Virus record (IMG/VR): IMGVR_UViG_3300009103_000152
Location: 1 to 24,068 of that record
Source: a virus
Direction: 5' to 3' (one strand)
Length of the DNA stretch: 24,068 nt
Every line of letters starts with the position of its first letter. Position 1 is the first letter of the stretch. A program made the position numbers and the translations under genes. Below are positions 9,674-22,885 of the stretch, in pieces. The notes beneath the pieces were generated by a model, which had not been told where the DNA came from, did no database searches, and saw only the letters and a program-made list of their open reading frames with translations.

Positions 9674-10072
9674 CTATTCTTGGTTATCGAGGGACATGGG
9701 CATGAGTTCGGCCTCCTGGACCGATTCGGTGTATACGTCCAGAATCTCGGTCAGCTGAGCCCCCGAATCCCGTAGTCGGGACATGATCTCGGCGGGAGAG
9801 GCCGATTTCTGGGTCTTGTCGTCCACCGTGATGTCGTGGCGAGTGGCCGGTTTGCCGAATCCGTACTCGAGCAAGAGGCGAGCCGAGTGCAATCGGGTCG
9901 TGTGATCGGGCTTTTCGGTGTATTCCACCCCCCTTTGGCCATCGTCCCTGTTCTTTCGGACGACGGTTTCGGCCGCTAGTCCTTCGCGGAGGGCCTGGAT
10001 CGCGTTCTCGAAGTCGTCGTCCTCGATGAAGCGGTGAATGTCTTCTCGGAGCTTCTTTACGGCCTTTTTCAT
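9674..10072 (-). CDS. terS: Probable terminase small subunit
   Basis: The 132-aa protein lies two small ORFs upstream of terL in the same operon. It has a helical N-terminus and the segment SARLLLEYGFGKPATRH at about residues 63-79. That segment resembles the ARLLLEYGYGKP pattern common in phage small-terminase-like proteins. The family role is to recognise the packaging site on phage DNA and load the large subunit. The ATG overlaps the protease gene stop by 4 nt (ATGA). There is no obvious classical helix-turn-helix, so the call rests on the family-like segment and on context. A second frame over the same DNA (131 aa) is a shadow. Confidence 0.7.
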   Translation of the reverse strand: MKKAVKKLREDIHRFIEDDDFENAIQALREGLAAETVVRKNRDDGQRGVEYTEKPDHTTRLHSARLLLEYGFGKPATRHDITVDDKTQKSASPAEIMSRLRDSGAQLTEILDVYTESVQEAELMPMSLDNQE

Positions 10073-10965
10073 TCGCCAATGGTGGTTTTTCTAATCAAAA
10101 ACGGGAATTTGGCGCCTTTGGAGTCGCCGCCGGAGCCGGTTCCCTCGGATGTGGAAGTCTCGATAGGCATTTTCAGTATCTCCTCCATACCAGGAGCCTC
10201 GACCGTGGCATCGAGACTCCAGAGGAGGTCGTTTTCGGACGCCCATTTGTACATGCGGCGAATTGGGACGATGAGATTGAACCCTTCGCCCGCCCCCCGC
10301 ACGAGCATCCCGACGTATTCTCCGGATTTGAGGTACACTCCCCCACCACTGCTTCCCGGGAAAGCGGTAACGGTAGTCTGATCGAACTCCATCTTGCCCT
10401 GGGTACGTCCAACCTGGGCAATTATGCCTGATGTCATGGAGTTCGAGCCCATCTGACCTAGCAGAGAGCCCACGTGATATAATTCAGTGCCGATGGGCAC
10501 TACGTCATCCTTCTTGGCTATTAGAAATTTTGCGCCGGCCTTGCCGTAATCCTTCGCTCGGACCATCAAAAGGGCCAAATCGTGCCCGTCGTCGTAGTCG
10601 GAGTACTTTATTACGCGCGCGTCCATCTTTATCTCACCGACGCGGCGGCCTCTTTCGACCAATTCCTTGACTACCTTGGCATCCTTGAACTCCACGACCT
10701 TTCGGGAATTGCCCTTGGAGTCGATTGCCTCGCGTACGGTGCGGAGGTTGTCGACCACGTGGGCGGCGGTCCATACGAAGGTGACGTCCTCCCCGTCTAT
10801 TTTGCGGATAATGAGGACCCCGGAGCCTTCGGAGCGCGAAAATCTGTCTTCTGCCTTAATCGTCACCGAAATGTCCTGTAAGTGCTCGGCGACTTTGGGG
10901 GCCGCGAACAGCGCTGCGGCCGGCATTATTAAGAGAAGAGAGATAATCGCTTTAAATTTTGTCAT
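10069..10965 (-). CDS. Secreted trypsin-like (HtrA/DegP-type) serine protease
   Basis: The 298-aa protein starts with a clear signal peptide: MTKFK, then the hydrophobic run AIISLLLIMPAAALF and a likely cut near AFAAP/AAP at residues 21-23. The chymotrypsin-fold triad is intact: H69 in TAAHVV, D129 in GHDLALL and S206 in PGSSGGGV. No PDZ domain follows the protease domain; about 60 residues after it look simple and end in a Ser/Gly-rich tail. It is therefore exported and probably active outside the cytoplasm. It is the first gene of the packaging operon, behind a likely promoter at 11074-11079, and its stop overlaps terS. A secreted protease is unusual in this position. Envelope remodelling, exclusion of other phages or help in lysis are possible roles. 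Prohead maturation is unlikely because of the signal peptide. Confidence 0.85.
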   Translation of the reverse strand: MTKFKAIISLLLIMPAAALFAAPKVAEHLQDISVTIKAEDRFSRSEGSGVLIIRKIDGEDVTFVWTAAHVVDNLRTVREAIDSKGNSRKVVEFKDAKVVKELVERGRRVGEIKMDARVIKYSDYDDGHDLALLMVRAKDYGKAGAKFLIAKKDDVVPIGTELYHVGSLLGQMGSNSMTSGIIAQVGRTQGKMEFDQTTVTAFPGSSGGGVYLKSGEYVGMLVRGAGEGFNLIVPIRRMYKWASENDLLWSLDATVEAPGMEEILKMPIETSTSEGTGSGGDSKGAKFPFLIRKTTIGE

Positions 10966-11373
10966 AGTATTTGGCCGTTATGGGTTCCCTAAACCCGAAC
11001 AGCCTACATTTTAGGTACCCCCCTTCCAAACGGTTGTGTCCGTAACAAACGGCTCTCTCAAAGGATACCTACAATTATATGTGATTGATAGGCGATTGCG
11101 AGTGGTAGTGATAGTGGTACCCCGCACAGGGTGGGGGGTGGCAGTGTCAGTAGCACTGGGAATCGCCGAGTCGGATGCGAAGTCGATACCGTCCTCGGTA
11201 GCGAGCTTGGCATGCGACTGAGAGTCAACGACTTAGCGTAGCGGGAATAGAGGATTCAGAATCCTGTATGCTTGAGTGATGGTAGGGGTCGTACGGGAAG
11301 GCCCCATCCCCTAAGCTTCAGGGTTAAGAATTTTCTATGGCAGTGGAGATAAGTCAAGAGGTTGACTCGGGAT
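10966..11373. other. Intergenic control region upstream of the late operon
   Basis: No gene is called here. The stretch holds a TATAAT box at 11074-11079 (minus), a leader hairpin GGGTT/AACCC at 10982-10995, a perfect 15-nt palindrome AGGATTCAGAATCCT at 11251-11265, and a longer inverted repeat TAGGGG/CCCCTA within about 11283-11312. A start-less but coding-like minus frame spans 11011-11232. A GTG-initiated plus frame at 11036-11221 covers the same bases and is not convincing. No tRNA fold was found. Confidence 0.5.
11074..11079 (-). promoter_or_regulatory. Likely -10 box of the late-operon promoter
   Basis: There is a perfect TATAAT on the minus strand about 110 nt upstream of the protease start, facing the protease-terminase operon. 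The -35 position at 16-18 bp spacing has only a poor match (CTCGCA region), so the promoter may need an activator or a different sigma factor. Confidence 0.4.
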
Positions 11374-12083: not shown

Positions 12084-12422
12084 TTATTTGGCGAATAGTC
12101 GCTGGGCGTAGGGCAAGAGTGAGTCGGCTGTGTCAATCATCCATCGGAAGTGGGTTGTGGATGGGACGAAGCCGGTGCCGATGTACCATTTGTCTCCTGC
12201 GGAGTACATGGACATGTGTTGCCACCTTTCCGATTGCAGGCGGAAGTCTACGTGGCCTCCGTACATCTTGGAGATGATTAGACCTTTGGGAAGGTCGCAT
12301 TTCTTTGTGGATGCGGAGATTACTTCCATGAGGTCGTGGTCTCTTGGAGTCATGCGACTTTTGACGCCTTTGTGATTAAGGATGTAAATCTTAGGCGGAT
12401 TGAATGTATGATTTGAGTGCAT
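12084..12422 (-). CDS. 112-aa hypothetical protein, last gene of the early block
   Basis: No family was recognised. It is a mixed alpha/beta protein with aromatic clusters (KWYIGTGFVPSTTHFRWM near residues 78-95). The ATG at 12422 lies inside the end of the rIIA-like gene (32-nt overlap). A second in-frame ATG at 12353 (MTPRDHD) would remove the overlap, but the intervening PPKIYILNHKG looks coding. No copy of the start-associated element precedes either start, unlike most genes of this block. No terminator is seen directly after it. Confidence 0.7.
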   Translation of the reverse strand: MHSNHTFNPPKIYILNHKGVKSRMTPRDHDLMEVISASTKKCDLPKGLIISKMYGGHVDFRLQSERWQHMSMYSAGDKWYIGTGFVPSTTHFRWMIDTADSLLPYAQRLFAK

Positions 12423-14703
12423 CTTGGATATCCTTTGCGTTGGTGTTGTATGGTATGTTTAGGAACTGGATCAGGGGTTTCTCATCTATGAGTGGTTGAA
12501 CGTGCTCGTCCCATAGTTTCGTATCGTTAGAAGGCCATTCCATGAGATTTAAATTCATGGCGATGGTTAAGAGCTTATAGATTACGTGAGGTTGAGGTCC
12601 TTTCTTGAATGGACTATGGGTAGCCGACAAGTCTTTGGTGGGTATAGCGCAGTGGCTGTATCGATCGAAGTCATGAAGGTTGATGAGTGTGGGTAATGCG
12701 GGATGCCAGTATTGATGTTTGTCTAGTATGTCTGATACTCGATAATCCGGGATGAGTTGATTAAGTTTGATGCTCGTTGATATGGAAGTGATCGCAATTT
12801 CGTAGGCTTTTCGATATTTGTTTCGAAAGGCTTTGAATTGTTTCTCGAACCATTGATCGTATGGAATCCAGGAGTCGTCGAGTTTGTCGAGGTATGCTCT
12901 CTTAACTCCGTGGATGATGGGATCTACATCGGGTTTGGTGAGGGTTAGGTTGTTGGTCTCTTCGAATAGATCGATTGCATGGTAGTAATCGGCTAGGAAT
13001 TGTCGTTCTATTGATGGGCCGTTGTTATTCCATTTGAAGCGATCGAGGGGTATGTATAGAAGTTCTCCTGTTTCTAGGGGTTGAGGAGTATCGATGTCCT
13101 GCAGTTGATCAGTTGCGAGAGAGGAAGGTTGTAGCCTGCATATAGATATTTTGGTTGTTGTTCCTTTCTTGGTTTTTACATTTGTACGGTTGGGTTTCAT
13201 CGGTTCAATGTCCTTGAGATCGATGAAGGAGTCCTTACCGAATAGGTGAAGGTTGGATTCCCAGTCTTTACCTTTAACTGATTTTTGTTTGGCCTTTAGG
13301 AATTTCAAGGGAAGGACGGGGCTGCAATCTATGCTGTTGGCGAGAGTTGGTGCATAGTAGGCATCCTGTTTTACTTTGACTTTTTCTTTTATCGTGGGGA
13401 GTACGTAAAAGATATGTTTGGGATCGTTGCCGTGTTCATGTTGAAGCGTGCGTACTCTGCGAGTTGCATTGGTCTTGGTTATGGATTCGGCGTCGTATCT
13501 ACATAGAAACGTATCAGGGGTAAGTTTGAAGGTACGTGCTTCGTCCTTTGTGTTTCTGTAGGTGTCGCTTTTCCAACTGTGTTTCTTGGAGTAGTATGTG
13601 ATATCGAATGGTACTTTGACTTGATTTGGTAGGGATTGGTCTTGCCAAGTTAGTGTCTTTAGTATGCCCGGTTGGAGGGATGCGGGCATGGCTTGAATCG
13701 CTTTGGTTGCGTGAGTAACTGCGGCGTGAAGGTTGGGTTGTCCGTCTATGTCCGATTGAAGTTTAGATGATAGTTCTTTGAGGGTGGTCTCCATCTGGGA
13801 GATTAGGACGGTATTTGTACGATTGGTGTATTCGAGACTTTCGCGTGATGCGGTTATTTCGAGACTGCCTAGGGGTAGTCTGAGTATAAGGTTACGCGCT
13901 TGCATTGCGGAACTTAGGTGGCTTGGTATGTTTTTCATCTTGTCGTACTCGATCCTGTACGGGACGTTGCCCATGACGGCTACGGGGGATCCTTCGTAGT
14001 AGTAATGGCTACGGTACTTGTTGTCTGCTTCTTCCTTTGCGAGTATTTGCCATGCGGGGCCTTCGTAATCGTAGGTTAGAGTGGGAATTTCTGCATTACA
14101 TTTGGGTTGAACGTCGAAGTATGGCAGTAGTTCTTTTGCTTCCTTGAGGAAGGTGTCGCGATCGCCGAGGTTAATTGGTACTTGGATCTCGATTCCTTGT
14201 TCATTTGGGGCGAGGGCTTCGCCTGACTTTGTTATCTTGCCGTGGTTGTTGTCGTCCATTGAAGCAAGCCATATGGTTTTCTTTCCGTTGTGCCAGGAAG
14301 TGATTGTGAATTGCTTTCCGTATGAGAAGGCGGCTTTGCATCCGATGCCGAGGCAGCCGGTAAAGGCATTGGATTGCCTCTTGGTTGATGCTCCGTACAT
14401 GATGTAGATTTCTCGTATGTCGGATTCGTCTAGTCCTCGGCCGTAGTCGCGTATGCGAAGCGTGGAGTCTTCCAAGGTGGGAAGTGTGATTTTGATGGGC
14501 TTGTCGGGGATGCCCGCTTCAATGTGTGCATCGATTGCGTTGGTTGCATACTCGCGAAGGACAGCTAGTTCTTTCTTTGAGTATACCCTGGATCGCATGA
14601 TGCCTTTTACGTGATCCATGTCTTCCGTTCGGATTCCGAAATGACTGGTTTCGTTTTCGTTTAGGTTGTTTGTGATTTTTGATGCTGCGGTTGCTAGTTT
14701 CAT
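12391..14703 (-). CDS. rIIA: rIIA-like GHKL ATPase protein
   Basis: The 770-aa protein has an N-terminal Bergerat-fold (GHKL) ATPase. The N-box E51-YATNAIDAH has N55 and D58, the DYGRG motif is at 86-90, and a glycine loop TGCLGIGCKAA lies near 115-125. This fold and length match the phage rIIA family. In T4, rIIA is a membrane-associated factor that overcomes exclusion by RexAB in lambda lysogens and affects lysis inhibition; the biochemical activity is unknown. The rest of the protein is family-typical but divergent. The rIIB partner lies upstream, separated by two small genes rather than adjacent as in T4. The leader contains an exact copy of TAACCACACACC at 14713-14724, 9 nt before the ATG, plus two extra TAACC units. 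The 3' end overlaps the next gene. Confidence 0.88.
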   Translation of the reverse strand: MKLATAASKITNNLNENETSHFGIRTEDMDHVKGIMRSRVYSKKELAVLREYATNAIDAHIEAGIPDKPIKITLPTLEDSTLRIRDYGRGLDESDIREIYIMYGASTKRQSNAFTGCLGIGCKAAFSYGKQFTITSWHNGKKTIWLASMDDNNHGKITKSGEALAPNEQGIEIQVPINLGDRDTFLKEAKELLPYFDVQPKCNAEIPTLTYDYEGPAWQILAKEEADNKYRSHYYYEGSPVAVMGNVPYRIEYDKMKNIPSHLSSAMQARNLILRLPLGSLEITASRESLEYTNRTNTVLISQMETTLKELSSKLQSDIDGQPNLHAAVTHATKAIQAMPASLQPGILKTLTWQDQSLPNQVKVPFDITYYSKKHSWKSDTYRNTKDEARTFKLTPDTFLCRYDAESITKTNATRRVRTLQHEHGNDPKHIFYVLPTIKEKVKVKQDAYYAPTLANSIDCSPVLPLKFLKAKQKSVKGKDWESNLHLFGKDSFIDLKDIEPMKPNRTNVKTKKGTTTKISICRLQPSSLATDQLQDIDTPQPLETGELLYIPLDRFKWNNNGPSIERQFLADYYHAIDLFEETNNLTLTKPDVDPIIHGVKRAYLDKLDDSWIPYDQWFEKQFKAFRNKYRKAYEIAITSISTSIKLNQLIPDYRVSDILDKHQYWHPALPTLINLHDFDRYSHCAIPTKDLSATHSPFKKGPQPHVIYKLLTIAMNLNLMEWPSNDTKLWDEHVQPLIDEKPLIQFLNIPYNTNAKDIQDALKSYIQSA

Positions 14704-14735
14704 TGGTTATGTGGTGTGTGGTTATTGATTACTGG

Positions 14736-15053
14736 TTATCCAACGATAGATATAAGTTCATCCATGTCTTGGTTTTTGTTTTCGCTTGTTCCTTTTCTTA
14801 GTCGTTCCATGAGCTGGTGAATGCGGTCCAAGCGTTCCTCTCTCTTCTGTGCGAGTAGTCGGTATTTCCATCGACGAGAGTTGAGCTTGAGTAGGCGATC
14901 AGCGGTGAATTCAATTCCGGTTAGTTTGAGGTAAGCGTCTCGGCATTTGCTTATACGCATTAGTTTTTCAGAATTAGTTAAGGCTTCTATGCTGCATTCT
15001 TCTACGATTGCTCGAAGGATTTGATAGCGTGAGTTGAAGTTTAGTGAGTTCAT
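14736..15053 (-). CDS. 105-aa basic helical hypothetical protein
   Basis: No family was recognised. It is predicted almost entirely helical and Arg/Lys-rich in the middle (RRWKYRLLAQKREERLDR), so nucleic-acid binding is possible but unproven. The frame extends upstream to 15128. ATG 15053 (MNSLNFNSRYQ) is preferred because it overlaps the preceding stop as ATGA and follows an A/C-rich leader (AACCATC just before ATG), like other starts in the block. The stop TAA begins TAACCAG, close to the start-associated element of rIIA. Confidence 0.72.
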   Translation of the reverse strand: MNSLNFNSRYQILRAIVEECSIEALTNSEKLMRISKCRDAYLKLTGIEFTADRLLKLNSRRWKYRLLAQKREERLDRIHQLMERLRKGTSENKNQDMDELISIVG

Positions 15054-15280
15054 GATGGTTTTTGTTTGGTGTTGTGCTTGGTTAGTAGTTCGGCGATTAC
15101 GGTGAGGGGGGTGTACGGGTAGACGCATTCCGTGGGATCTTCGTTTAGTCGTTCTCGGTGTGGTTCCAATAGTTCGTCCGGTTTGGATGGGAAGCCTACT
15201 TCAACGGATCCTTCGCTTGAATACGTGTGGGGGCCAGTGATCATGCCGAAGGTGAAACCGTCTTTGCATGTGATTCTCAT
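15050..15280 (-). CDS. 76-aa hypothetical protein
   Basis: No family was recognised. It is a small beta-rich protein with a Gly/Ser-rich N-terminal half and a helical C-terminus (TPLTVIAELLTKH). An exact start-associated element lies at 15298-15309, 17 nt upstream. A degraded second copy (AATCACGCAC) sits 4 nt before the ATG, suggesting an old duplication of the leader. It is coupled by ATGA to the next gene. Confidence 0.7.
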   Translation of the reverse strand: MRITCKDGFTFGMITGPHTYSSEGSVEVGFPSKPDELLEPHRERLNEDPTECVYPYTPLTVIAELLTKHNTKQKPS

Positions 15281-15314
15281 GATAGTGCGTGATTAGTGGT
15301 GTGTGGTTAAAGGA

Positions 15315-15342
15315 TGAGCAGTTTTACGACGTGCTCAGGTCG
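15315..15342 (-). repeat. 28-nt hairpin repeat, copy B
   Basis: This matches the 11939-11966 copy at 27 of 28 positions, with the same TGAGCA/TGCTCA stem. It lies between the rIIB stop and the next start-associated element. Read in the rIIB frame it is open and ends at the TAA of that element. Confidence 0.75.
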
Positions 15343-15357
15343 CCATAACCAATACCG

Positions 15358-16332
15358 CTAAGAGGGGTTGGGCCGTGCAGTTAGATCCTCGGCATTGATG
15401 TCCCATTGAAAGGAACCTCCTGCCTCGACGAGGGTGTTATGGATGTCGTTGGAGTTTAGCTGTGGGAATTTCCCTGCGATTTTGTGCAAGGTGGGAGTTT
15501 TGTTTTTCTTCCACCTTTTGCGTAGGTACTTTTTCAGCTTTTTGGTTTGCGGGTTGTCGGCGTCGATGCCGTATAGGCCGTCGGCCAGGGGGGCACGGTC
15601 GAAGCATTCACCCACCACGGTGTATTTGCAGACGCGTAGCTTTGCGTATTGACTGCAGCTGGGTACGGATACGATGTCTTTGGGGCTGAATTCGACTTGC
15701 ATCAGTTTTCCATTGTGGCCCCAGGAGTCGGCGTATTGGAAGGTGCCGATGTGGAAGCCTGCGGAGCAACCGTGATCAACGTTGTCGTCGACCATTGTGC
15801 GGGGCATCTCGTGGGTGGAACCGATGGAGTTGTCGAATCGTCCGGAGTATATGTCTTTGTATTCTTCCGATACTCCTTTGTATCCGATGACGTTTCCTTC
15901 GTGAGTGATGGGCATGTTGGAGTGTTCGATGAACTTATACCCTTGTTCTCTCGAATTGTAGGATGGATTTTCCATGTATTTGTTGGCGAATTTCATCCAT
16001 GGTCCGAGGTCGGTGAATCCTTCTCGAAGGAGGTAGAGCATCTTATTGCTCAAGGCGTTGTTTATTGGTTGTCCCTTGTATAGAACGATATCTCCTTCGA
16101 TGGATATGTCTCCGTCGCTTAGCTTTTGGAAGGATGCTTTGACCGATAGAGTTTGGTCGAGCAGATCCCAGTGTTTTGAGCGGATTACGTCCTTGAGGTC
16201 GGCATAGTTGGGAGACGAGCTGGACACGGTGTGGGGTACTCCGTTCCAGATGATTGTGATTGATGAATCCGATATTTCGTACGGTGGATCCTGATCCGTG
16301 TGTGGTGTGTGGTCTGTTTTGTTATAGTACAT
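15358..16332 (-). CDS. rIIB: rIIB-like protein
   Basis: The 324-aa protein matches the conserved core of phage rIIB-like proteins. The blocks are MENPSYNSREQGYKFIEH (120-137), the Gly/Tyr block NVIGYKGV, YKDIYSGRFDNSIG (158-171), MPRTMVDDN (176-184), CSAGFHIG (189-196) and DIVSVPS. In T4, rIIB works with rIIA against RexAB exclusion. The first ~22 residues are unlike the family and contain a copy of the start-associated element (16304-16313) read as coding. No ATG, GTG or TTG follows it for more than 20 codons, so ATG 16332 is kept. That ATG overlaps the upstream stop by 11 nt. The stop is TAG. The frame stays open for 16 more codons after it. Confidence 0.88.
   Translation of the reverse strand: MYYNKTDHTPHTDQDPPYEISDSSITIIWNGVPHTVSSSSPNYADLKDVIRSKHWDLLDQTLSVKASFQKLSDGDISIEGDIVLYKGQPINNALSNKMLYLLREGFTDLGPWMKFANKYMENPSYNSREQGYKFIEHSNMPITHEGNVIGYKGVSEEYKDIYSGRFDNSIGSTHEMPRTMVDDNVDHGCSAGFHIGTFQYADSWGHNGKLMQVEFSPKDIVSVPSCSQYAKLRVCKYTVVGECFDRAPLADGLYGIDADNPQTKKLKKYLRKRWKKNKTPTLHKIAGKFPQLNSNDIHNTLVEAGGSFQWDINAEDLTARPNPS
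16304..16313 (-). promoter_or_regulatory. Start-associated element inside the rIIB 5' end
   Basis: ACCACACACC occurs downstream of the only usable rIIB start codon, 9 nt after the stop of the upstream gene. This copy tracks the gene junction rather than a fixed distance to the ATG. Confidence 0.6.
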
Positions 16333-16999
16333 GAGCCCAGTATAGTGAGTTGGTTTGGTTTTGGATTTTGTCCCAGAATATGTTCCTGCTGATTACAGGT
16401 GGGACGTTGTAGTGTTGGGATTGTTTCAACCAGTAGTTTTCGTAGTGTTGGTACTGCGGTAGCTCCGGTTGATGATCCAGCATAGTCCAGCCGAATGTCT
16501 TGAGCATGTGTCGATCGAGACATAGGCATTGGGCCGTATGAGGATGAATCATTTCGATGGCGAAGCTGATCTTGGCTTGCCCTATGTTGGGTAAGCGTTC
16601 GATGAGTTTGTTTCTCCATTGTTGCCAATCGTTGGTGGGTTGGAACAGCTTGCGATCCGTTAACCATTTCATTTGGAAGTGGTATATTCCGTTGGCTTTG
16701 AGTGACCACATGCCTCCGCTGGAACATGATAGTTTGTGTTCCAGGCGTTGGCGTGTGGTGTAACCGTATATACCTTTGATTTGGTTGTACTGATCGCAGC
16801 TGCGTTCCCACGGGGTATGGATTGTGCAGTAGGCGAATCGCCATCGATTGATGGTTTCCTGATCGGTTTGTGGGGCTATAGTCGACCAGTCGCGCTTGTA
16901 TTGCGAAATCTTGTAGGGTGTTAGACCTTCGAAGAATTTGGTTATACGCTTACGAGATGCTCTTGGTATGGGCTGAATAGCCGGTCCATCCGATTTCAT
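16322..16999 (-). CDS. HhH-GPD DNA glycosylase-like protein (first copy)
   Basis: The 225-aa protein carries a helix-hairpin-helix LPNIGQAK at 136-143, followed 19 residues later by CLDRHML with D162 in the place of the catalytic Asp of endonuclease III-type glycosylases. The known family cuts damaged or modified bases from DNA. The Lys of bifunctional enzymes (VGRKTA) is shifted by one position here, so the chemistry may be monofunctional or altered. There is no C-terminal [4Fe-4S] cysteine cluster. The start at 16999 lies 50 nt inside the upstream GP88-like gene. No other start is available, and a start-associated element at 17006-17014 supports it. Tight overlap with GP88 suggests joint action. 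A base-modification role is inference. Confidence 0.72.
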   Translation of the reverse strand: MKSDGPAIQPIPRASRKRITKFFEGLTPYKISQYKRDWSTIAPQTDQETINRWRFAYCTIHTPWERSCDQYNQIKGIYGYTTRQRLEHKLSCSSGGMWSLKANGIYHFQMKWLTDRKLFQPTNDWQQWRNKLIERLPNIGQAKISFAIEMIHPHTAQCLCLDRHMLKTFGWTMLDHQPELPQYQHYENYWLKQSQHYNVPPVISRNIFWDKIQNQTNSLYWAHVL

Positions 17000-17729
17000 G
17001 TTTTAGTGTGGTTAAGGCTTTGGATGCTTTTGAACCAGCGGGTTGTGACCCGTGGATCAAGTGACCGAACGATTTGCCTGGTTTGTATGCGTGGCTGTCG
17101 TCATGGTCTAGTTCCAGTCCTTTTTTCTTGGCTGCGGCTAAGCTGAATACGACCTCTGCAGTCTTCAGGTTGTGCAGTTCGATCAAGTCGTCGAATTTGC
17201 CTCCTTTGGATGCGTTCAGCTCGAAGTTGTCGGGAATCTCGTCTTTGTAGAGTACCCATAGATCCAGTCGCTTTGTATAAGCGTAGAATTGGGTGGGATG
17301 TAAGCTCCTTGCGAGATCCATCCATGCGAGGAAGTAATCGTCTTTGAAGAAGTCTCCTCCTACGTGAGCCCTGACAATTGGCCTTTGTTGATGATTGAGC
17401 AGATACTTGTCATGTAGGGGTTGGAGAGAAGCCTTCAGTAGTGTGAAGATTTTCTTTCTTCCCAGTCGACGAAGTGTCTGGAAGTTATGCCATCGTTGGT
17501 TGCGGATGTTACTGTGCCTTGCTTCTTGCATGGCTGCATAGCAACGATAGTCCTGTTGTTTGCCGTCCGTTATTTTGCCGGTTAGGGCATGGGCTTTGGC
17601 TAGACACTTCAGAGCAGCGGGGCAGCTGTGGCCTGATGGTAGGCTGAAGTGAATGATACGATCGGGCAGCTTTACGTTGCCGCGATTCCATCGTAATACT
17701 GGATTAGTCTTTGACGTTGTTTTTGTCAT
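16950..17729 (-). CDS. GP88-family phage protein
   Basis: The 259-aa protein resembles the phage 'gene product 88' family. It has HFSLPSGHSCPAALKC near 27-42, a later Cys in YRCYAA (C63), the block RAHVGGDFFKDDYFLAWMDLA at 120-140 and FYAYTK at 148-153. Three well-placed Cys (C36, C42, C63) could bind a metal, but this is inferred. The family function is unknown. It starts 26 nt inside the preceding zinc-ribbon gene, with the short element AACCACA just before the ATG, and its 3' end overlaps the glycosylase gene by 50 nt. Such nesting on both sides points to co-translation with the glycosylase. Confidence 0.75.
   Translation of the reverse strand: MTKTTSKTNPVLRWNRGNVKLPDRIIHFSLPSGHSCPAALKCLAKAHALTGKITDGKQQDYRCYAAMQEARHSNIRNQRWHNFQTLRRLGRKKIFTLLKASLQPLHDKYLLNHQQRPIVRAHVGGDFFKDDYFLAWMDLARSLHPTQFYAYTKRLDLWVLYKDEIPDNFELNASKGGKFDDLIELHNLKTAEVVFSLAAAKKKGLELDHDDSHAYKPGKSFGHLIHGSQPAGSKASKALTTLKHEIGWTGYSAHTKSIS
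17006..17014 (-). promoter_or_regulatory. Start-associated element within GP88 coding sequence
   Basis: TAACCACAC lies 6 nt before ATG 16999, in the same alignment to the ATG as in the 3-nt-spaced full copies. Because it is inside a coding region, it supports both the start choice and a role tied to the start codon. Confidence 0.6.
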
Positions 17730-17937
17730 TATGTGGTTCGTTTGTGCCTAACCATAGCATGCAGCGGAAACAGCTTTTTCCGTTCTTTGCTTGGTCTGCG
17801 TTCATTAGGATTTCATCGCAGACTGGGCAAGGTGCCAGGCTGTAGGCTTTTACGTATCGTTTCACTGCTTTCCGGTACTGCTCTTCGGAGTATTTTTCCG
17901 GGCGAGCGAGTACCTTGAAGGCAGTGCGCAATAACAT
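17704..17937 (-). CDS. 77-aa zinc-ribbon-like protein
   Basis: This small basic protein has paired cysteines CPVC (about residues 37-40) and CFRC (about 56-59), separated by about 15 residues and typical of a zinc ribbon. The N-terminal half is helical and Lys/Arg-rich (EEQYRKAVKRYVKAY). It probably binds nucleic acid or a protein partner; no specific family was recognised. Its ATG follows the DUF932-family stop directly (TAAATG), without a start-associated element. Its end overlaps the GP88 start by 26 nt. Confidence 0.75.
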   Translation of the reverse strand: MLLRTAFKVLARPEKYSEEQYRKAVKRYVKAYSLAPCPVCDEILMNADQAKNGKSCFRCMLWLGTNEPHNDKNNVKD

Positions 17938-18750
17938 TTAGTTTACCAGTATTTCGGTGTCTTCCAGATGAGTGATGTCAATGGGATCCGGGGATCGTTC
18001 GGCCATTAGGTCATCGATTGTATCCTGACAGAAGCTGTTGAACGTGTTATGTAGCAAAATGCTACGGTCCTGGATTGTGCTTGGGGAGCTCTTTTGTACT
18101 TCGGTGAAGGCGTTGAACATCGACCAGGCGTTTCGTGGCTCGAATTCATCATGGCTTGGTTTTTCCCATTCTTGGAGTACCTTTTGGAATTTGGATCCGG
18201 GAAGGCATTGCTTGCGGAATGCGAGACCCATCAGTTGATCGGCCTGTGTCTGTTCCAGTTCCGTAGCGGAGTAGGCTTCGTAACGGATTTCCTGATGAAG
18301 CCACTTGTCGTTCAGTTGTCCCACCATGTAGTTTACGATGTTAGGGAGATCCTTGAGGATGTTGCGGGTATGCTTTCTGTTGCATTTGATTTCCCCGCTG
18401 AATGCGAGGTTGTCGCAAACGAATACTCTTGATCCTGCGACGAGTCCGGCACTGAAGTGCTTGATGTGACTGTTGCGTATGCCGACGATGTTTCGGAAGG
18501 TACCGTTGTCTTCTCCTGCACCGGCTTTTTCGATCTCGAAGGTGGCGAACATGTTGTGTCCTTTGTGGCCGAGGCCGTATCGCTTTTTCACGATGTCGAG
18601 TCCTTGATCGGTCAAGGTGTCTTCTACGAGGCCGAGTAGGTGATCGTGCTTTATCGGGTAGTGTGTGTCGGTGTGACTTGGCGTGGAAGCCCGTTGTATG
18701 TCTGGAAGTTCGCAGGGCGTGCTTCCGCAATGTAGATATAGATCTTTCAT
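17938..18750 (-). CDS. DUF932-family protein
   Basis: The 270-aa protein has the hallmark segment of the phage/plasmid DUF932 family near residues 90-120: GIRNSHIKHFSAGLVAG, then RVFVCDNLAFSGE. The family is widespread on phages and plasmids; its function is unknown. The frame extends to 18906. ATG 18750 (MKDLYLHCG) is chosen because it overlaps the previous stop as ATGA and has a start-associated element upstream at 18769-18780. That element would fall inside the longer version. Confidence 0.8.
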   Translation of the reverse strand: MKDLYLHCGSTPCELPDIQRASTPSHTDTHYPIKHDHLLGLVEDTLTDQGLDIVKKRYGLGHKGHNMFATFEIEKAGAGEDNGTFRNIVGIRNSHIKHFSAGLVAGSRVFVCDNLAFSGEIKCNRKHTRNILKDLPNIVNYMVGQLNDKWLHQEIRYEAYSATELEQTQADQLMGLAFRKQCLPGSKFQKVLQEWEKPSHDEFEPRNAWSMFNAFTEVQKSSPSTIQDRSILLHNTFNSFCQDTIDDLMAERSPDPIDITHLEDTEILVN

Positions 18751-18971
18751 TTTATGATAGTTAGCTTTGGTGTGTGGTTTATATGATCGCACCAGCCTTG
18801 TATTGTGATTAAGGGCTGACGCTTGTTCTTTTTTGATTCCGTCGGCACGGATATGCGGACGGCTTCGGTTAATAAGCATTTGCCTCGGTAGTGCACCGTC
18901 AGGCATCGCTTGGGTTTGTTGTAGTGGTAGAAGAATCGGTATTTACGAGGCTTCTGCGAATTCGAGGACAT
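18747..18971 (-). CDS. 74-aa basic hypothetical protein
   Basis: No family was recognised. It is basic and aromatic-rich at the N-terminus (PRKYRFFYHYNKPKR), with a beta-rich middle. The start at 18971 lies 29 nt inside the preceding gene, with an A/C-rich leader but no clear element. The 3' end carries the element of the DUF932 gene as coding sequence. The frame is open between two genes that otherwise leave a 190-nt hole, which supports it being real. Confidence 0.6.
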   Translation of the reverse strand: MSSNSQKPRKYRFFYHYNKPKRCLTVHYRGKCLLTEAVRISVPTESKKNKRQPLITIQGWCDHINHTPKLTIIK

Positions 18972-19299
18972 TGTTCGGTTGGTCTTGTTGTGTTAACGAG
19001 AGGTCGAACGTTTGCTCGATTGGTTCGGGGGTTACGTTGGCTTTGATTCCGTAGCATTTTATGGATTTTACGGTATCGAGGTTTAGCGTGCGGTAACCTG
19101 TTTCGTTGCCCATGAGATATATGGGAACGTAACTGTTCGTTGGTTGGGATATCCGTCGGCCGGTTCCCTTGATGTTTTTGACTACTCGGGTACGGCAGTT
19201 GGCGGATCTTTCGGTGCCGTCTTTCTTAATCCACGTGATGTGGAAGATGGCATTGCCGAGACGTTGTAGTATGGTTTGCAGTTTTGTTCTATGTAGCAT
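18943..19299 (-). CDS. 118-aa hypothetical protein
   Basis: No named family. The central pattern, with TRVVKNIKGTGRR and later YRTLNLDTVKSIKCYG, resembles small phage proteins of unknown function that have a beta-barrel-like core. An exact start-associated element (19301-19312) sits 1 nt before ATG 19299, and its TAA is the stop of the glycosylase upstream. This is the closest spacing in the set. Confidence 0.75.
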   Translation of the reverse strand: MLHRTKLQTILQRLGNAIFHITWIKKDGTERSANCRTRVVKNIKGTGRRISQPTNSYVPIYLMGNETGYRTLNLDTVKSIKCYGIKANVTPEPIEQTFDLSLTQQDQPNNVLEFAEAS

Positions 19300-19309
19300 T
19301 GGTGTGTGG

Positions 19310-19873
19310 TTATTTAGTTGTTGCGGTTTGCCAGATCAGATTATCGAGATCCGTCGGGCTTATGTTTAGTTGACAGCTACGGCCTAGGAACAAGGCTTCT
19401 ATGTTCTTGTATTCCTGTGGTTGCTGTGGAGTAATTTTGGGTATGGGTAGTTTGGGGAATTGGTCTTTCAACCATTTGAGGATATGGGTATCGAGTACGG
19501 CGATCTCGGGCCAGGCTTGGGAGTGAGCGATGAAGAAGCTTGCGGTCTTCATTCCTATTCCGGGTACTTGGACTAAGATGTCGCGATCGATGTTTCTTAG
19601 GTGTGTTGGACGCATGTTGTTGGCAATGTGACGCCAGCATTTTGTCAGTCGGGTTTCCTGGCCCATGCCTACGGAACGCAATGCTCCGCGAACGGTGTTG
19701 CCGTGTTGGTTGATCAAGTCTTCGGGTTCTTGTTCCTCGAAGAGTTGGTTGAACTTAGTGGTTTGAACGTCCGATCGTTTTCCCGCTACTACGGTAGTCC
19801 ATAGTAGGAAGTGCAGGAGTTGAGTCGGCGTTCGGTTATCTTTCGTTATTCGGTATTGGTCTATGGGTTTCAT
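19310..19873 (-). CDS. HhH-GPD DNA glycosylase/lyase-like protein (second copy)
   Basis: The 187-aa protein has a canonical helix-hairpin-helix VPGIGMKTA at 103-111, with K109 aligned to the catalytic Lys of endonuclease III/Ogg-type enzymes. D128 in AVLDTHILKWL is the catalytic Asp. Both residues present suggests a bifunctional base-excision glycosylase/AP lyase. There is no [4Fe-4S] cluster, as in 8-oxoguanine glycosylases of the smaller type. It is clearly distinct in sequence from the copy at 16322-16999. An exact start-associated element lies 3 nt upstream, and the stop TAA begins the next element. The substrate is unknown: damaged bases, host-modified bases or phage-modified bases. Confidence 0.85.
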   Translation of the reverse strand: MKPIDQYRITKDNRTPTQLLHFLLWTTVVAGKRSDVQTTKFNQLFEEQEPEDLINQHGNTVRGALRSVGMGQETRLTKCWRHIANNMRPTHLRNIDRDILVQVPGIGMKTASFFIAHSQAWPEIAVLDTHILKWLKDQFPKLPIPKITPQQPQEYKNIEALFLGRSCQLNISPTDLDNLIWQTATTK

Positions 19874-19885
19874 TGTGGTGTGTGG

Positions 19886-20056
19886 TTATAGTTGTATTGG
19901 ATTTTTGACTTCCAATATTTGCTGAAGGGCAATGATTCGTGCTCGAAGGATTCTGAGTTGGACGGCGTCGCGGATGGGGGACTTGCCCCTGTCGTGGTCG
20001 ACGAGTTGGATCATGTAGTCCTCGAGTTCCTCGATTAGGTTATGCAGGGGCTTCAT
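19886..20056 (-). CDS. 56-aa hypothetical helical protein
   Basis: No family was recognised. It is predicted as two long helices (LHNLIEELEDYMIQLVDH and LRILRARIIALQQILEV) and may form a coiled-coil dimer. ATG 20056 is chosen over 20122 because the longer form would overlap the previous gene by 83 nt, whereas this one overlaps by 17. The TAA stop forms the start of the glycosylase element. Confidence 0.65.
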   Translation of the reverse strand: MKPLHNLIEELEDYMIQLVDHDRGKSPIRDAVQLRILRARIIALQQILEVKNPIQL

Positions 20057-20252
20057 CGAATGGGCCGAATAGTTCTTTCCAGCTTTCCGGAGTGATTCCC
20101 GTTTTGATGAATTCTCGTTCACCTTGAGGTACGTTGGGCATGGCTTCCTGGATTAGCATTCCGTTTTGCCATTGGAAGATTTGGTCTTCCGTTACGTCGA
20201 TTTCCATCTCGACGGTTGTTCTTTTAACGGGGTCGAATCTTGATATCTTCAT
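20040..20252 (-). CDS. 70-aa conserved phage hypothetical protein
   Basis: The C-terminal half, with PNVPQGEREFIKTGITPESW, resembles a small protein common in phages of unknown function (pattern xxEREFxxTGITPExW). The N-terminus is a beta hairpin. An exact start-associated element (20262-20273) lies 9 nt before the ATG. An out-of-frame ATG lies between element and start, so leaky initiation is possible. Confidence 0.78.
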   Translation of the reverse strand: MKISRFDPVKRTTVEMEIDVTEDQIFQWQNGMLIQEAMPNVPQGEREFIKTGITPESWKELFGPFDEAPA

Positions 20253-20270
20253 ATTGCATGTGGTGTGTGG

Positions 20271-20444
20271 TTATTGGTTGATGGCTTGATTAAGTTTATC
20301 GTAGTCGGATTGTTCCTTGAGGTAGATGAATCCGGGCCATTGGTAGCGCATCTTTAGTGGAGTTATATTGAGTTTCTCGAGGTAGTGGAGTGCGAGATGC
20401 AGTCCATCTACATGGAAGCCTTGTTTTTGGTATATGATTCTCAT
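20271..20444 (-). CDS. 57-aa hypothetical protein
   Basis: This short ORF (begins MRIIYQKQGFHVDG, ends YDKLNQAINQ) fills the space between two confident genes. An exact element sits 3 nt before its ATG and its TAA is the start of the next element, which together make translation very likely. The fold appears beta-alpha; no family was recognised. Confidence 0.75.
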   Translation of the reverse strand: MRIIYQKQGFHVDGLHLALHYLEKLNITPLKMRYQWPGFIYLKEQSDYDKLNQAINQ

Positions 20445-20456
20445 TTTGGTGTGTGG

Positions 20457-20945
20457 TTATGTTGATTTTTTTCTTTTTGCTTTGAGATATTGCGTGAAGG
20501 CGAGATCGTCGGCTTTCGCTTTTGCGAAGCTACGGACGAGCTCTTCATGGATTTTTGGGTCGTCTATTTCATCCATGTCGAGTGGTTCATTAAGCAGATG
20601 GACAATACCTCGAATGCTGCCTTGTATTCTGTTGAATAGCATATGGCAGTCTACGATTTGGTTTTCGGGTCTTGAGTAGCCTTCTAGGTTTACCTTGACT
20701 GCGTATACTCCGTACTCCGAGGGCATGTCGCCTTCCACTATTGAGAGATAGTCGTAGCTGAATATCTCTGATAGTTCTCCTTCGGCATGGATGGCCCAGA
20801 TTTTTTCTTTTGGATACTTTAGAAGGTTGGGATTCGATAGGGTATTTTCGAACCAAGGCCCTTTTTGTTTGTTAGAGTAGTCCAGATTTGGGTGGGGTTT
20901 TCCAATATTGTGGAGTGGTTCGAGTACTAGGTTAGTTGATTTCAT
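20457..20945 (-). CDS. 162-aa hypothetical protein
   Basis: No family was recognised. It has a mixed fold: a beta-rich middle (YGVYAVKVNLEGYSRPENQIVDCHMLF, quoted in part: VYAVKVNLEGY), an acidic loop (DMDEIDDPKIHEE) and a Lys/Arg-rich C-terminus ending KAKRKKST. A one-base variant element (20949-20960) is 3 nt before the ATG. The stop TAA begins the next element. Confidence 0.75.
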   Translation of the reverse strand: MKSTNLVLEPLHNIGKPHPNLDYSNKQKGPWFENTLSNPNLLKYPKEKIWAIHAEGELSEIFSYDYLSIVEGDMPSEYGVYAVKVNLEGYSRPENQIVDCHMLFNRIQGSIRGIVHLLNEPLDMDEIDDPKIHEELVRSFAKAKADDLAFTQYLKAKRKKST

Positions 20946-20957
20946 GATGGTGTGCGG

Positions 20958-21050
20958 TTATTGGATTGAGGCTGTTAGCCAGGAGAAGAGCATCGTTAGT
21001 CCGATGAGGATTAGTACGAATGCCCAGTCTAGTGCGGTTTCTAGGTTCAT
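20958..21050 (-). CDS. 30-aa single-pass membrane peptide
   Basis: This tiny ORF (begins MNLETALDW) is almost entirely one hydrophobic helix (AFVLILIGLTMLFSWL), flanked by an acidic N-terminus and a short polar end. The leader is the shortened element TAAACC directly before ATG, and its stop TAA begins the next element. That context supports translation. It probably inserts in the inner membrane. Possible roles include exclusion, lysis timing or a subunit partner for rII proteins; none is proven. Confidence 0.6.
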   Translation of the reverse strand: MNLETALDWAFVLILIGLTMLFSWLTASIQ

Positions 21051-21053
21051 GGT

Positions 21054-21707
21054 TTAGATGTGGATAGTATCGATTATGCAGTTCTCGGGACGAGCGATGC
21101 TGTCGTAAGGGTTGCCGGTCAGGTTGGCTATGCTCACATGGAGTAACCTAATGGGAAAGTCTTCGTCTTCCTTTCCTAGGTGATCATAGCTGTCGAACAG
21201 GTCGAGGTTTATGTCTCCCCATAGGTGGGTAGCTCTATATATCCATTCGGGATGTAGGGGGATCCAGGCGGATTTTTTGTTGTCGACTGCACTGATGTAG
21301 ATAGGCGCTAGTGTAATGTCGCCAATGATTGGTACGGCATCCATGTGACATAAATCTAGGCTCTCGTTTAGTTTCTCTTCGTAGAGGTCGTGTGCGACGG
21401 TAGGGTCTGATTGTAGCGAGTTAAATCGGAATGGTGTGCCCAAGCTGATGTGAAAGCTGTCGAGCATGGTGAGGTTGTGTTTAACGTCGTCCGGCTTGTA
21501 GTAGTGGTCCGCTCGTGCGTAGTATCCTTTGTAATCATTGGATTTCAATTTTAGTATTTGGTGTCGGTGATAATAAAGCTGGCCGCCTGTGCAGAGGGAG
21601 CTTTCGTCGAGATCGTCTAGTTTTTTTACTAGATGTTTGTGAATCACCGAATCGGTATCGATGTCGATGTGCATGTAGTTTTTGTTTTTAATGTTTAGTG
21701 TTAGCAT
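21054..21707 (-). CDS. Candidate 2H phosphoesterase-like protein
   Basis: The 217-aa protein has two H-x-S motifs about 100 residues apart, each at the end of a hydrophobic strand: SFHISLG (H86, S88) and LLHVSIANLTGNPYDS (H190, S192). This is the pattern of the 2H phosphoesterase fold (RNA ligase/cyclic phosphodiesterase type). Known phage 2H enzymes include T4 Acb1, which degrades CBASS cyclic nucleotides. The match is by motif only. An exact element lies 3 nt before the ATG. The neighbours are small orphans. Confidence 0.6.
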   Translation of the reverse strand: MLTLNIKNKNYMHIDIDTDSVIHKHLVKKLDDLDESSLCTGGQLYYHRHQILKLKSNDYKGYYARADHYYKPDDVKHNLTMLDSFHISLGTPFRFNSLQSDPTVAHDLYEEKLNESLDLCHMDAVPIIGDITLAPIYISAVDNKKSAWIPLHPEWIYRATHLWGDINLDLFDSYDHLGKEDEDFPIRLLHVSIANLTGNPYDSIARPENCIIDTIHI

Positions 21708-21725
21708 GATGGTGTGTGGTTATGG

Positions 21726-22220
21726 TTATGCGTAGGAGGGAACGGGGCCTGTCCACGTAGGGTGGACTTCTTCGGTTAGCGGTGGGTGCATGTGGTGTTG
21801 ATATTCAACCATTTGATGAGGTTCTTGTATCCATTTAGGGCTTTGGATGATGTGCATCTCTTTGGCTTTTTCTCCGAAGGTGAACATGTTTCGTCCGTCT
21901 CCCCATGATTCGAAGGCACAATCGATTTCAAGATGAGTTTGGTTGTATCTTTGTTCTCTGGGGTCGAGTTGGCGATAGTAGTGCATATAATGAACTTCCC
22001 GTAGGTGGTGCATGAGATCATAGCTGTTTTCCTCGGTTTTCCATTTTTCGTTTTCTTTGAATATGATTAGTGCTGAGAAGCCGTATTCAGATTCGACGGG
22101 GATGGTGCATTCTTGTCGGCGATTGTCGTTAGTGGTAATAAGCTCGAATTCTCTACGAGGATCGTGTTCTTCGCCGAATATGGTGATGATGATGTCGGGT
22201 TTTTCCTTTAGTATGTTCAT
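21726..22220 (-). CDS. 164-aa hypothetical protein, first large gene of the early block
   Basis: No family was recognised. It is beta-rich, with a His/Met/Tyr-rich centre (HHLREVHYMHYYRQLD) and a Pro/His-rich C-terminus. The His richness might reflect metal binding, but this is speculative. An exact element lies at 22224-22235, 3 nt before the ATG. As the first full gene after the divergent control region it is probably expressed very early. Confidence 0.75.
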   Translation of the reverse strand: MNILKEKPDIIITIFGEEHDPRREFELITTNDNRRQECTIPVESEYGFSALIIFKENEKWKTEENSYDLMHHLREVHYMHYYRQLDPREQRYNQTHLEIDCAFESWGDGRNMFTFGEKAKEMHIIQSPKWIQEPHQMVEYQHHMHPPLTEEVHPTWTGPVPSYA

Positions 22221-22267
22221 GATGGTGTGTGGTTATGGTGTTGTATGGTTTAGGAGTTGGAGTCCTT

Positions 22268-22328
22268 GTCCCCCTGTCCTAAAATTTTTCAAATTTCACC
22301 CCGTGAAATATGGAAATGACAGGGGGAC
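22268..22328. repeat. 11-bp perfect inverted repeat with nested hairpin
   Basis: GTCCCCCTGTC (22268-22278) and GACAGGGGGAC (22318-22328) enclose 39 nt. Inside is a second perfect inverted repeat, ATTTCAC-CCC-GTGAAAT. The plus strand continues TTTATTTTA, terminator-like but with no gene upstream on that strand. Possible roles are a regulator site, an origin-like structure or an antisense stop. Confidence 0.75.
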
Positions 22329-22329
22329 T

Positions 22330-22425
22330 TTATTTTAAGACGACTGTATGATAGTAGCTAGCCGTTCGACCTTGACGTGGGCACGCCGGCCGTGCATGTA
22401 GTGGGGGATACTGAATGATACGCAT
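22330..22425 (-). CDS. Possible 31-aa leader peptide
   Basis: ATG 22425 (MRIIQYPPLH...) follows a one-base variant element (22428-22439) by 2 nt, exactly as at real starts in the block. The frame runs 31 codons to TAA, just before the inverted repeat. The peptide has no recognisable feature and part of it overlaps the dispersed repeat. Only the element argues for translation. It may be a remnant gene or a leader peptide. Confidence 0.35.
   Translation of the reverse strand: MRIIQYPPLHARPACPRQGRTASYYHTVVLK
22345..22370. repeat. Diverged copy of the repeat at 11895-11921
   Basis: TGTATGATAGTAG and then AGCCGTTCGAC match the other copy with a few substitutions and one indel. A further CTGAATGATA occurs at about 22411-22420. 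Repeats are thus shared between the two control zones of the genome. Confidence 0.6.
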
Positions 22426-22527
22426 GTGGTGTGTGGTTGTTTAGTACTTGGGCTGATCTGTTAGCGCAGGTTGGCCCTTATTTTTTGTCTGTGGAGCACG
22501 GGTATGAAGACTGGGAAAACCTGTTGC

Positions 22528-22614: not shown

Positions 22615-22854
22615 GTGAATGCAAAAAAGCTGACCCTCAACACGCTCAATGTTCGCATGAATTGCGAGGACTACACTCGGCTTCAGGAATTATGCCAGGA
22701 GCTGAGTGAGCGGGGGGCCAAAACCAACGTCTCGTCATTCGTCAATGACGCCGTGCTAGGCGCAATGGCAATGATCGAGCAACCTAAACCCAAACTTCCG
22801 AGATTCATAGGAGTTGCGCGCTACGCAAAGGACTATGAGCCGGAAGACGTATAA
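22615..22854 (+). CDS. Ribbon-helix-helix type transcriptional regulator
   Basis: The 79-aa protein has a beta strand (LNVRM, 11-15), a first helix (CEDYTRLQELCQELS, 17-31), a polar turn and a second helix (VSSFVNDAVLGAMAMIE, 39-55), matching the Arc/CopG-type layout. Such proteins bind operators as dimers through the strand. The start is GTG, because no in-frame ATG gives the strand. It lies at the divergent control region, right behind two A-tract direct repeats, so autoregulation and control of the leftward early genes is inferred. The TAA stop begins the plus-strand relative of the start-associated element. Confidence 0.7.
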   Translation: MNAKKLTLNTLNVRMNCEDYTRLQELCQELSERGAKTNVSSFVNDAVLGAMAMIEQPKPKLPRFIGVARYAKDYEPEDV

Positions 22855-22885
22855 ACCCACACACCGCGAGAAAGAAGAAAAGACG

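Follow-up and report, generated by a model that had tools for sequence, protein, structure and literature searches.

An A/C-rich element at early gene starts of an uncultured phage family may act as a translation-initiation signal in place of a Shine–Dalgarno sequence

The DNA analyzed (the window) is the complete virus record IMGVR_UViG_3300009103_000152 of IMG/VR, 24,068 bases in length, which is apparently part of a larger phage, as its relatives reach 69 kb. Recognizable genes in the window include those for terminase (phrog_2), an rIIA-like protein (phrog_612, E 1e-93), an rIIB-like protein (phrog_609), gp88, DUF932, an Ogg/HhH glycosylase-like protein, WYL_2, and HNH. The strand asymmetry is sharp: the early genes at 12–23 kb are A/C-rich on the coding strand and the late genes at 1–11 kb are not, and the cumulative skew turns at about 11 kb. 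Within the early block, a 12-nt element, TAACCACACACC, stands repeatedly a few nucleotides before start codons, and its distribution, conservation, and possible function are described here.

Recounting against shuffled sequences gave eight exact copies and three copies with one mismatch, spread over 14713–22439 of the minus strand, as a preliminary description of this DNA had stated; at up to two mismatches, 14 matches were obtained against 1.74 expected from shuffles (7 in the largest shuffle). An ATG follows 1–9 nt downstream of nine of these 11 copies, exactly 3 nt downstream of five, and the TAA of the element serves as the stop codon of the upstream gene in five of the 11 (four of the eight exact copies), both features having been described correctly before. 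Shortened forms, TTAACCACACTAAAACATG, GAACCACATAATG, and AAAAACCATCATG, lie ahead of three other early genes. Two of the earlier claims needed qualification. Placement at gene starts holds for most copies, but the copy at 22428 precedes only a 31-codon frame in the leader and no recognized gene; the two-mismatch copy at 16304 is an exception to the start rule, and the related genome G007 also has a copy at that place. Confinement to the early block holds in that the late block (1–12 kb) contains no copy with 0–1 mismatch, its only two-mismatch match (1838) being on the opposite strand, but a diverged relative, TAAACCCACACACC, stands between two plus-strand genes outside the early block.

A search with the terminase yielded 80 loci of 76–84% identity; the related contigs are uncultured and mostly 15–69 kb long. 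In an attempt at host identification, neither a terminase relative above approximately 30% identity nor a portal relative was found among cultured phages. The best phage matches of the Ogg-like protein were mostly Caulobacter phages (approximately 34%), and the sole GTDB match, located in a metagenome-assembled genome labelled as an archaeon, was set aside as probably misbinned. The phage family carrying the element consists of uncultured bacterial viruses, apparently mostly marine. Of the related contigs inspected, at least nine contain the element (G002–G005, G007, G011, G012, G015, and G017), with the same gene-wise orientation and the same ATG offset as in the window. These contigs are kin, so that element counts represent non-independent events, and gene starts are predicted ones throughout.

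Within a set of seven less redundant genomes, the 11-mer AACCACACACC occurs exactly 57 times, with an ATG within 3 nt in 33 cases, whereas 400 permutations of it average 0.49 occurrences, the only frequent permutation being AACCACACACC shifted by one base. Permutations were used instead of a reversed-pattern control, which was discarded because CCACACACC reads identically backwards and such a control matches the element. In an unbiased search for 8-mers enriched before ATG, the top words were pieces of AACCACACACC, led by CACACCAT (p ~1e-20). Of 63 elements, 39 are followed by an ATG within 3 nt, and the offsets show a second peak at 9 nt. For the 684 other 11-mers composed of A and C alone in these genomes, the proportion with so close an ATG is 5.4%; base composition is therefore no explanation for the element. 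Equal frequency away from starts, which the preliminary description had named as a ground for rejecting the start association, was not observed in the relatives. Among 51 sites with up to one mismatch, the 3' part CACACC is invariant, partly owing to site selection, the 5' AACC tolerates some change, and position 5 is A, sometimes G. The distance to the ATG is 3 nt at 22 of these sites, 9 nt at nine, 2 nt at four, 10 and 15 nt at three each, and other values at few, and G occupies only 9 of 331 nt in the spacers.

The element is also conserved at orthologous junctions, the lack of which had been proposed as a second ground for rejection. At the start of the Ogg-like gene it lies 2–3 nt before the ATG in most close relatives, the proteins of which are 40–66% identical, even though the flanks are unrelated and the upstream gene differs between relatives; altogether it is present at 7 of 13 distinct starts of this gene. 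At the DNA polymerase start it was detected in 18 of 33 distinct upstream regions, distant homologues included, and before gene 21054–21707 (gene 21054) in every relative holding that gene, with one mismatch in G011. Loss or decay also occurs, as in G001, which has CCAAAATCCTACGAACC before the Ogg-like gene, and at rIIA in G003. Lineages without the element were considered as a route to a trans-acting factor, and gave little information: G006 is without an early block and G001 retains weak forms.

The distribution among gene classes was determined with a simple home-made gene caller, the element being scored within 40 nt upstream of the start; A/C-rich genes on the terminase strand were taken as early and replication genes on the opposite strand as middle. 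The element was found upstream of 42 of 100 early, 10 of 91 middle, and 2 of 117 late genes. A tetramer resembling the Shine–Dalgarno (SD) sequence was detected at none of the 54 genes with the element, against 59 of the 254 genes without it, and the element itself contains no G, in agreement with the earlier statement that it is not an SD sequence. The element takes the place of the SD sequence. Middle genes include clear SD sequences, such as GGAGG before an exonuclease-like gene, and therefore the host is probably able to use SD. The predicted unpaired probability between −15 and +3 is 0.83 at element-bearing starts, as compared with 0.60 at early genes that have no element and 0.48 within early genes.

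A hairpin lies approximately 10–15 nt upstream of the element in leaders and before the first genes of transcription units. Over all loci, 10 of the 13 hairpins with a CUGCAA loop and at least 5 bp stand directly before an element, against none for 12 control loops. In an alignment of 10 rows, 95% of stem cells pair, a percentage biased upward by the partial use of pairing in gathering the rows, and all six pairs show changes on both sides; these double changes and the unchanged loop remain informative. Neither the pairing nor the covariation score was matched by any of 500 shuffles or by a slid version. The loop is CGCUAA in G005 and in the window, and relatives have hairpins with CUGCAA or CGCUAA loops at the leader position. 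What is conserved in the stem is its pairing and not its sequence, which places the leader signal in RNA; mainly for this reason, we prefer a role in RNA to one in DNA for the adjoining element. Leader copies equivalent to that at 22428 are present in G003, G004, G005, G012, and G017, each with the ATG at +2, and in all six genomes the element is followed by AU or AC and then by the ATG. The leader conserves the element and the AUG, not a peptide.

Table 1. Copies of the element and adjoining RNA structures in the window; (r), read directly from the sequence
Feature	Position	Strand	Placement
Diverged relative TAAACCCACACACC	22852..22865	+	holds stop of small upstream gene; 20 nt before next plus-strand ATG
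Leader hairpin GGGC/GCCC, inner CTG-[CGCTAA]-CAG (r)	22450..22477	-	just upstream of leader copy
Leader copy CAACCACACACC	22428..22439	-	2 nt before ATG opening only 31 codons
Exact element	22224..22235	-	3 nt before ATG of gene 21726-22220
Exact element	21711..21722	-	3 nt before ATG of gene 21054-21707; start conserved in 3 relatives
Variant TAACCGCACACC	20949..20960	-	3 nt before ATG of gene 20457-20945; TAA is upstream stop
Exact element	20448..20459	-	3 nt before ATG of gene 20271-20444; TAA is upstream stop
Exact element	20262..20273	-	2 nt before short-frame ATG, 9 nt before ATG of gene 20040-20252; TAA is upstream stop
Exact element	19877..19888	-	3 nt before ATG of Ogg/HhH glycosylase-like gene 19310-19873; TAA is upstream stop
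Exact element	19301..19312	-	1 nt before ATG of WYL_2 (Sm-like) gene 18943-19299; TAA is upstream stop
Variant AAACCACACACC	18769..18780	-	within end of gene 18747-18971; 18 nt before ATG of DUF932 gene (17938-18753)
Shortened form GAACCACATA (r)	17730..17739	-	abuts ATG of gp88-like gene 16950-17729
Shortened form TTAACCACACTAAAAC (r)	17000..17015	-	abuts ATG of gene 16322-16999
Two-mismatch copy AGACCACACACC	16304..16315	-	inside 5' end of rIIB-like gene, past its ATG
H-type pseudoknot CGACCTGAGCACGTCGTAAAACTGCTCA	15315..15342	-	immediately upstream of 15298 copy; recurs beside element in relatives
Exact element	15298..15309	-	17 nt before ATG of gene 15050-15280
Degenerate form CAAAAACCATC (r)	15054..15064	-	before ATG 15053 of gene 14736-15053
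Exact element	14713..14724	-	9 nt before ATG of rIIA-like gene 12391-14703; offset identical in G007

Other features were noted near the element, in the leaders, and elsewhere. A small RNA motif, NGACCTGAGYANGTCN...AACTGCTCA, fits an H-type pseudoknot, with 98% of cells paired and compensatory changes in stem 1; it was located at 15315–15342 of the window (minus strand), at L221 5595, 7116, and 7328, and at L093 6453 and 10111, and further in L043, L048, L065, L095, L098, L106, L122, L159, L188, and L231. In most records it adjoins the AACCACACACC element, often ahead of rIIA, and G007 carries approximately five copies. An Rfam scan of six sources gave two tRNAs only, with no match of the pseudoknot motif at the gathering threshold and nothing convincing at the leader. 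A box, GCTAGCTACTATCAT, single or repeated, which is possibly an operator or a promoter, lies between the leader copy and the first gene in the window (22348–22362, minus strand) and in G004 (approximately 6650–6700), G012 (approximately 1760–1800), G011, G005, and G017. In the early leader of the window (22268–22328, minus strand), a perfect 11-bp inverted repeat, GTCCCCCTGTC / GACAGGGGGAC, which is attenuator- or antitermination-like, precedes the first gene. Conserved short inverted-repeat leaders, AGGGAACCCATAT or GAGGACTCCTTT, a possible late promoter or leader element, precede the first late gene, which adjoins the terminase (approximately 10069–10990 of the window, minus strand, and many L loci). 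Genes for tRNA-Ala(TGC) and tRNA-Thr(GGT) directly precede an element-led middle gene (L210 and L212; G003 and G004). A conserved noncoding stretch before an integrase-like gene (G004, L213 3498–4659) includes a copy of the element that is distant from any ATG; the stretch may be an attachment region, in which case some of these phages would be temperate. The product of gene 21054 (minus strand) contains two HxS motifs (FHISLG and LHVSIANLTG) conserved in relatives; these motifs are 2H phosphoesterase-like and suggest a possible anti-CBASS (Acb1-like) enzyme, no Pfam match being found for the product and the confidence of its structure model being too low for use.

Among the three roles envisaged in the preliminary description, a signal for translation initiation fits these results best, a target for an RNA- or DNA-binding regulator is a possible one, and there is little support for a recombination seam as the main function. 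With a confidence slightly above even, we consider the element to be an SD-independent initiation signal acting in mRNA. The AACCACACACC word together with its short, nearly G-free spacer would keep approximately 15–20 nt 5' of the AUG single-stranded, in the place of the SD sequence, and a sequence-specific reader would hold the 30S subunit at the AUG 3 nt, or less often 9 nt, downstream. Because the word is exact, openness alone would be insufficient, and we infer that a specific reader must exist, through which the element would recruit ribosomes; the candidates are the ribosome itself or the host protein S1, a host small RNA, and a phage RNA-binding protein. At the first genes of units the element would act paired with the CUGCAA hairpin (CGCUAA in some leaders), and inside operons, where the upstream stop is often at or near the element, terminating ribosomes could reload. 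The initiation element is possibly a regulatory target as well. Precedents for the parts of this scheme have been reported: in Salmonella, initiation at yifK and dppA is raised by ACA motifs, the replacement of which reduces expression by at least 90% (PMC3879156), correct starts are selected without SD pairing (PMC7043885), and absence of structure is a sufficient start-site cue (PMC3121790).

Several observations weigh against an initiation signal of this kind. More than half of the early genes carry no good copy, and leader copies keep an ATG yet open no real gene, the reading frames being 4–31 codons where measured. The exclusion between SD and element is partly forced, in a steric sense, by the element filling the SD position, and the openness follows from A/C composition. 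Change of upstream A to C abolished expression in four E. coli reporters (PMC7043885), which means that a mixture of A and C should not be taken for an ordinary A-rich signal. E. coli 16S and 23S ribosomal RNAs contain no convincing complement, no match being better than those of shuffled elements. As a tentative and rather doubtful extension, hairpin and element might form a two-part, SD-free start code, in which the CUGCAA-loop hairpin and the single-stranded AACCACACACC box would be recognized by a dedicated reader (a phage Sm-like protein, a modified ribosome, or a host small RNA), so as to distinguish early phage mRNAs from SD-led host and later phage mRNAs.

An unlikely but serious rival is a translational operator, at which a phage protein comparable to T4 RegA, or a GU-rich small RNA comparable to GcvB, would bind beside the AUG and shut off early and replication genes later in infection. 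The T4 RegA regulon includes the same class of targets, about 30 mRNAs, including that of rIIB, with sites that overlap the AUG or lie immediately 5' to it (PMC3014915), and the element is carried by rIIA, DNA polymerase, and early genes; its exact sequence conservation implies a specific reader. Repressed genes, however, would still need a start signal, and the element has no accompanying SD-like motif; no RegA-like Pfam match was found among the proteins scanned, which cover those of the relatives in part. Neither a conserved antisense GGTGTGTGG site nor a conserved antisense RNA of the phage was found: among four antisense or convergent matches, three are isolated late-block sites that are not conserved, and the fourth (G012 1678) is the sense leader copy of G012. 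The early Sm-like/WYL_2 protein (18943–19299, minus strand), encoded directly behind one element copy and conserved in six genomes, would suit an operator; its predicted structure, a helix with a strand barrel (mean pLDDT 65), gave weak matches to WYL domains, Rof, and Hfq (best E 0.03, TM approximately 0.5 or less). This weak likeness to Hfq/Sm/WYL folds speaks against the operator, and WYL_2 is only a candidate for a nucleic-acid-binding partner.

Less likely again, although also a serious rival, is a DNA site like the L5 stoperator, where a repressor bound to an asymmetric sequence in a short intergenic gap blocks transcription elongation in lysogens. The tight ATG offsets of 3 and 9 nt, the retention of the ATG even after gene-less leader copies, the link to a covarying RNA hairpin, and the degenerate A/C-rich forms at some starts all disagree with such a site, no repressor was recognized, and the rII-like genes point to lytic growth. 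The element nevertheless shares with the sites of cluster A phages an asymmetric sequence of 11–12 bp, transcription-wise orientation, intergenic position, and many copies (PMC9283540), and an integrase-like protein in one relative (L213:3724–4659, G004) and small ribbon-helix-helix-like proteins, judged by eye, near the divergent promoters (one at 22615–22854 of the window) agree with this possibility. It is improbable that every copy marks a 5' end, as a transcription start or RNA-processing element giving near-leaderless mRNAs: the copies do lie very near the ATG, and those at first genes are preceded by AT-rich tracts and by a hairpin of the kind usual at 5' ends, but conservation ends at 11–12 nt, internal copies share no −10/−35-like sequence upstream, many copies overlap the upstream stop codon, and no phage RNA polymerase was noticed in a partial scan of the relatives' genes. 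A recombination seam, at which the word would be kept for exchange of gene cassettes at starts, could be a by-product and is most improbable as the primary role, because the element keeps a fixed offset to the ATG and accompanies the downstream gene; the upstream neighbors do differ at conserved element–gene junctions, as at the Ogg gene, but a seam predicts neither the fixed offset, nor persistence at junctions, nor absence from the late block, and a word of 11 bp offers little length for homologous exchange.

The means by which ribosomes locate starts in the absence of SD are still under debate, and what phage start-associated sequences do has been an open question since 2011. The present element separates a start-associated repeat from SD and offers many natural replicates with a covarying RNA partner, by which both questions become open to simple reporters and pull-downs. 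It also provides a tag for recognizing this uncultured phage group.

Among known systems, the TAACTGA repeats of marine Beggiatoaceae (PMC4679880) are similar to the element in SD replacement, built-in stop codons, and a proposed translational role, but they are tandem heptamers of another sequence in cellular genomes, whereas the element is a different word, present mostly as single copies in phage. The GcvB-targeted ACA or CA-rich enhancers (PMC3879156) are likewise C/A-rich, lie beside the initiation site, raise translation, and can be read by GU-rich RNA; they act together with SD and without strict spacing, whereas the exact 11-mer replaces SD at fixed spacing. T4 RegA operators (PMC3014915) resemble the element in that they are unstructured and are shared by numerous early phage mRNAs, rII among them, at the AUG, but differ in being A+U-rich, poorly conserved, and repressive, and no RegA homologue was found among the present proteins scanned. 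L5 stoperators (PMC9283540), also asymmetric, transcription-oriented, intergenic, and present in many copies, act in DNA with a known repressor and have no known tie to a fixed ATG offset or an RNA hairpin. The layout of the element is closest to that of the start-associated sequences (SAS) of cluster K mycobacteriophages and cluster EF Microbacterium phages (PMC3203893, PMC7302621), short asymmetric repeats (13 bp, approximately 10–19 copies) in one orientation, a few nucleotides before the ATG of largely non-structural genes, sometimes holding the upstream stop and accompanied by a second motif upstream of a subset. The likeness to cluster K SAS, already pointed out in the preliminary description together with their ribosome site, was confirmed in copy number (at least 10 per genome in SAS, 11 in the 24-kb window, all in gene direction and in the early block), in ATG distance, and in the preference for non-structural genes. 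The SAS GGGATAGGAGCCC and GGGAAAGGACCCC, however, contain an SD core that can pair with the 3' end of 16S ribosomal RNA, whereas the present element has no G and no SD and finds no good complement in E. coli 16S; the SAS partner ESAS, a 17-bp inverted repeat upstream of a subset, is not supported by covariation as an RNA hairpin, whereas the RNA hairpin that accompanies the present element covaries strongly and its loop is invariant; and the host group and phage lineage appear unrelated. The element seems to work like SAS, yet it is not classed among them, given that it contains no SD core and that the partner upstream of it is a different one, which covaries.

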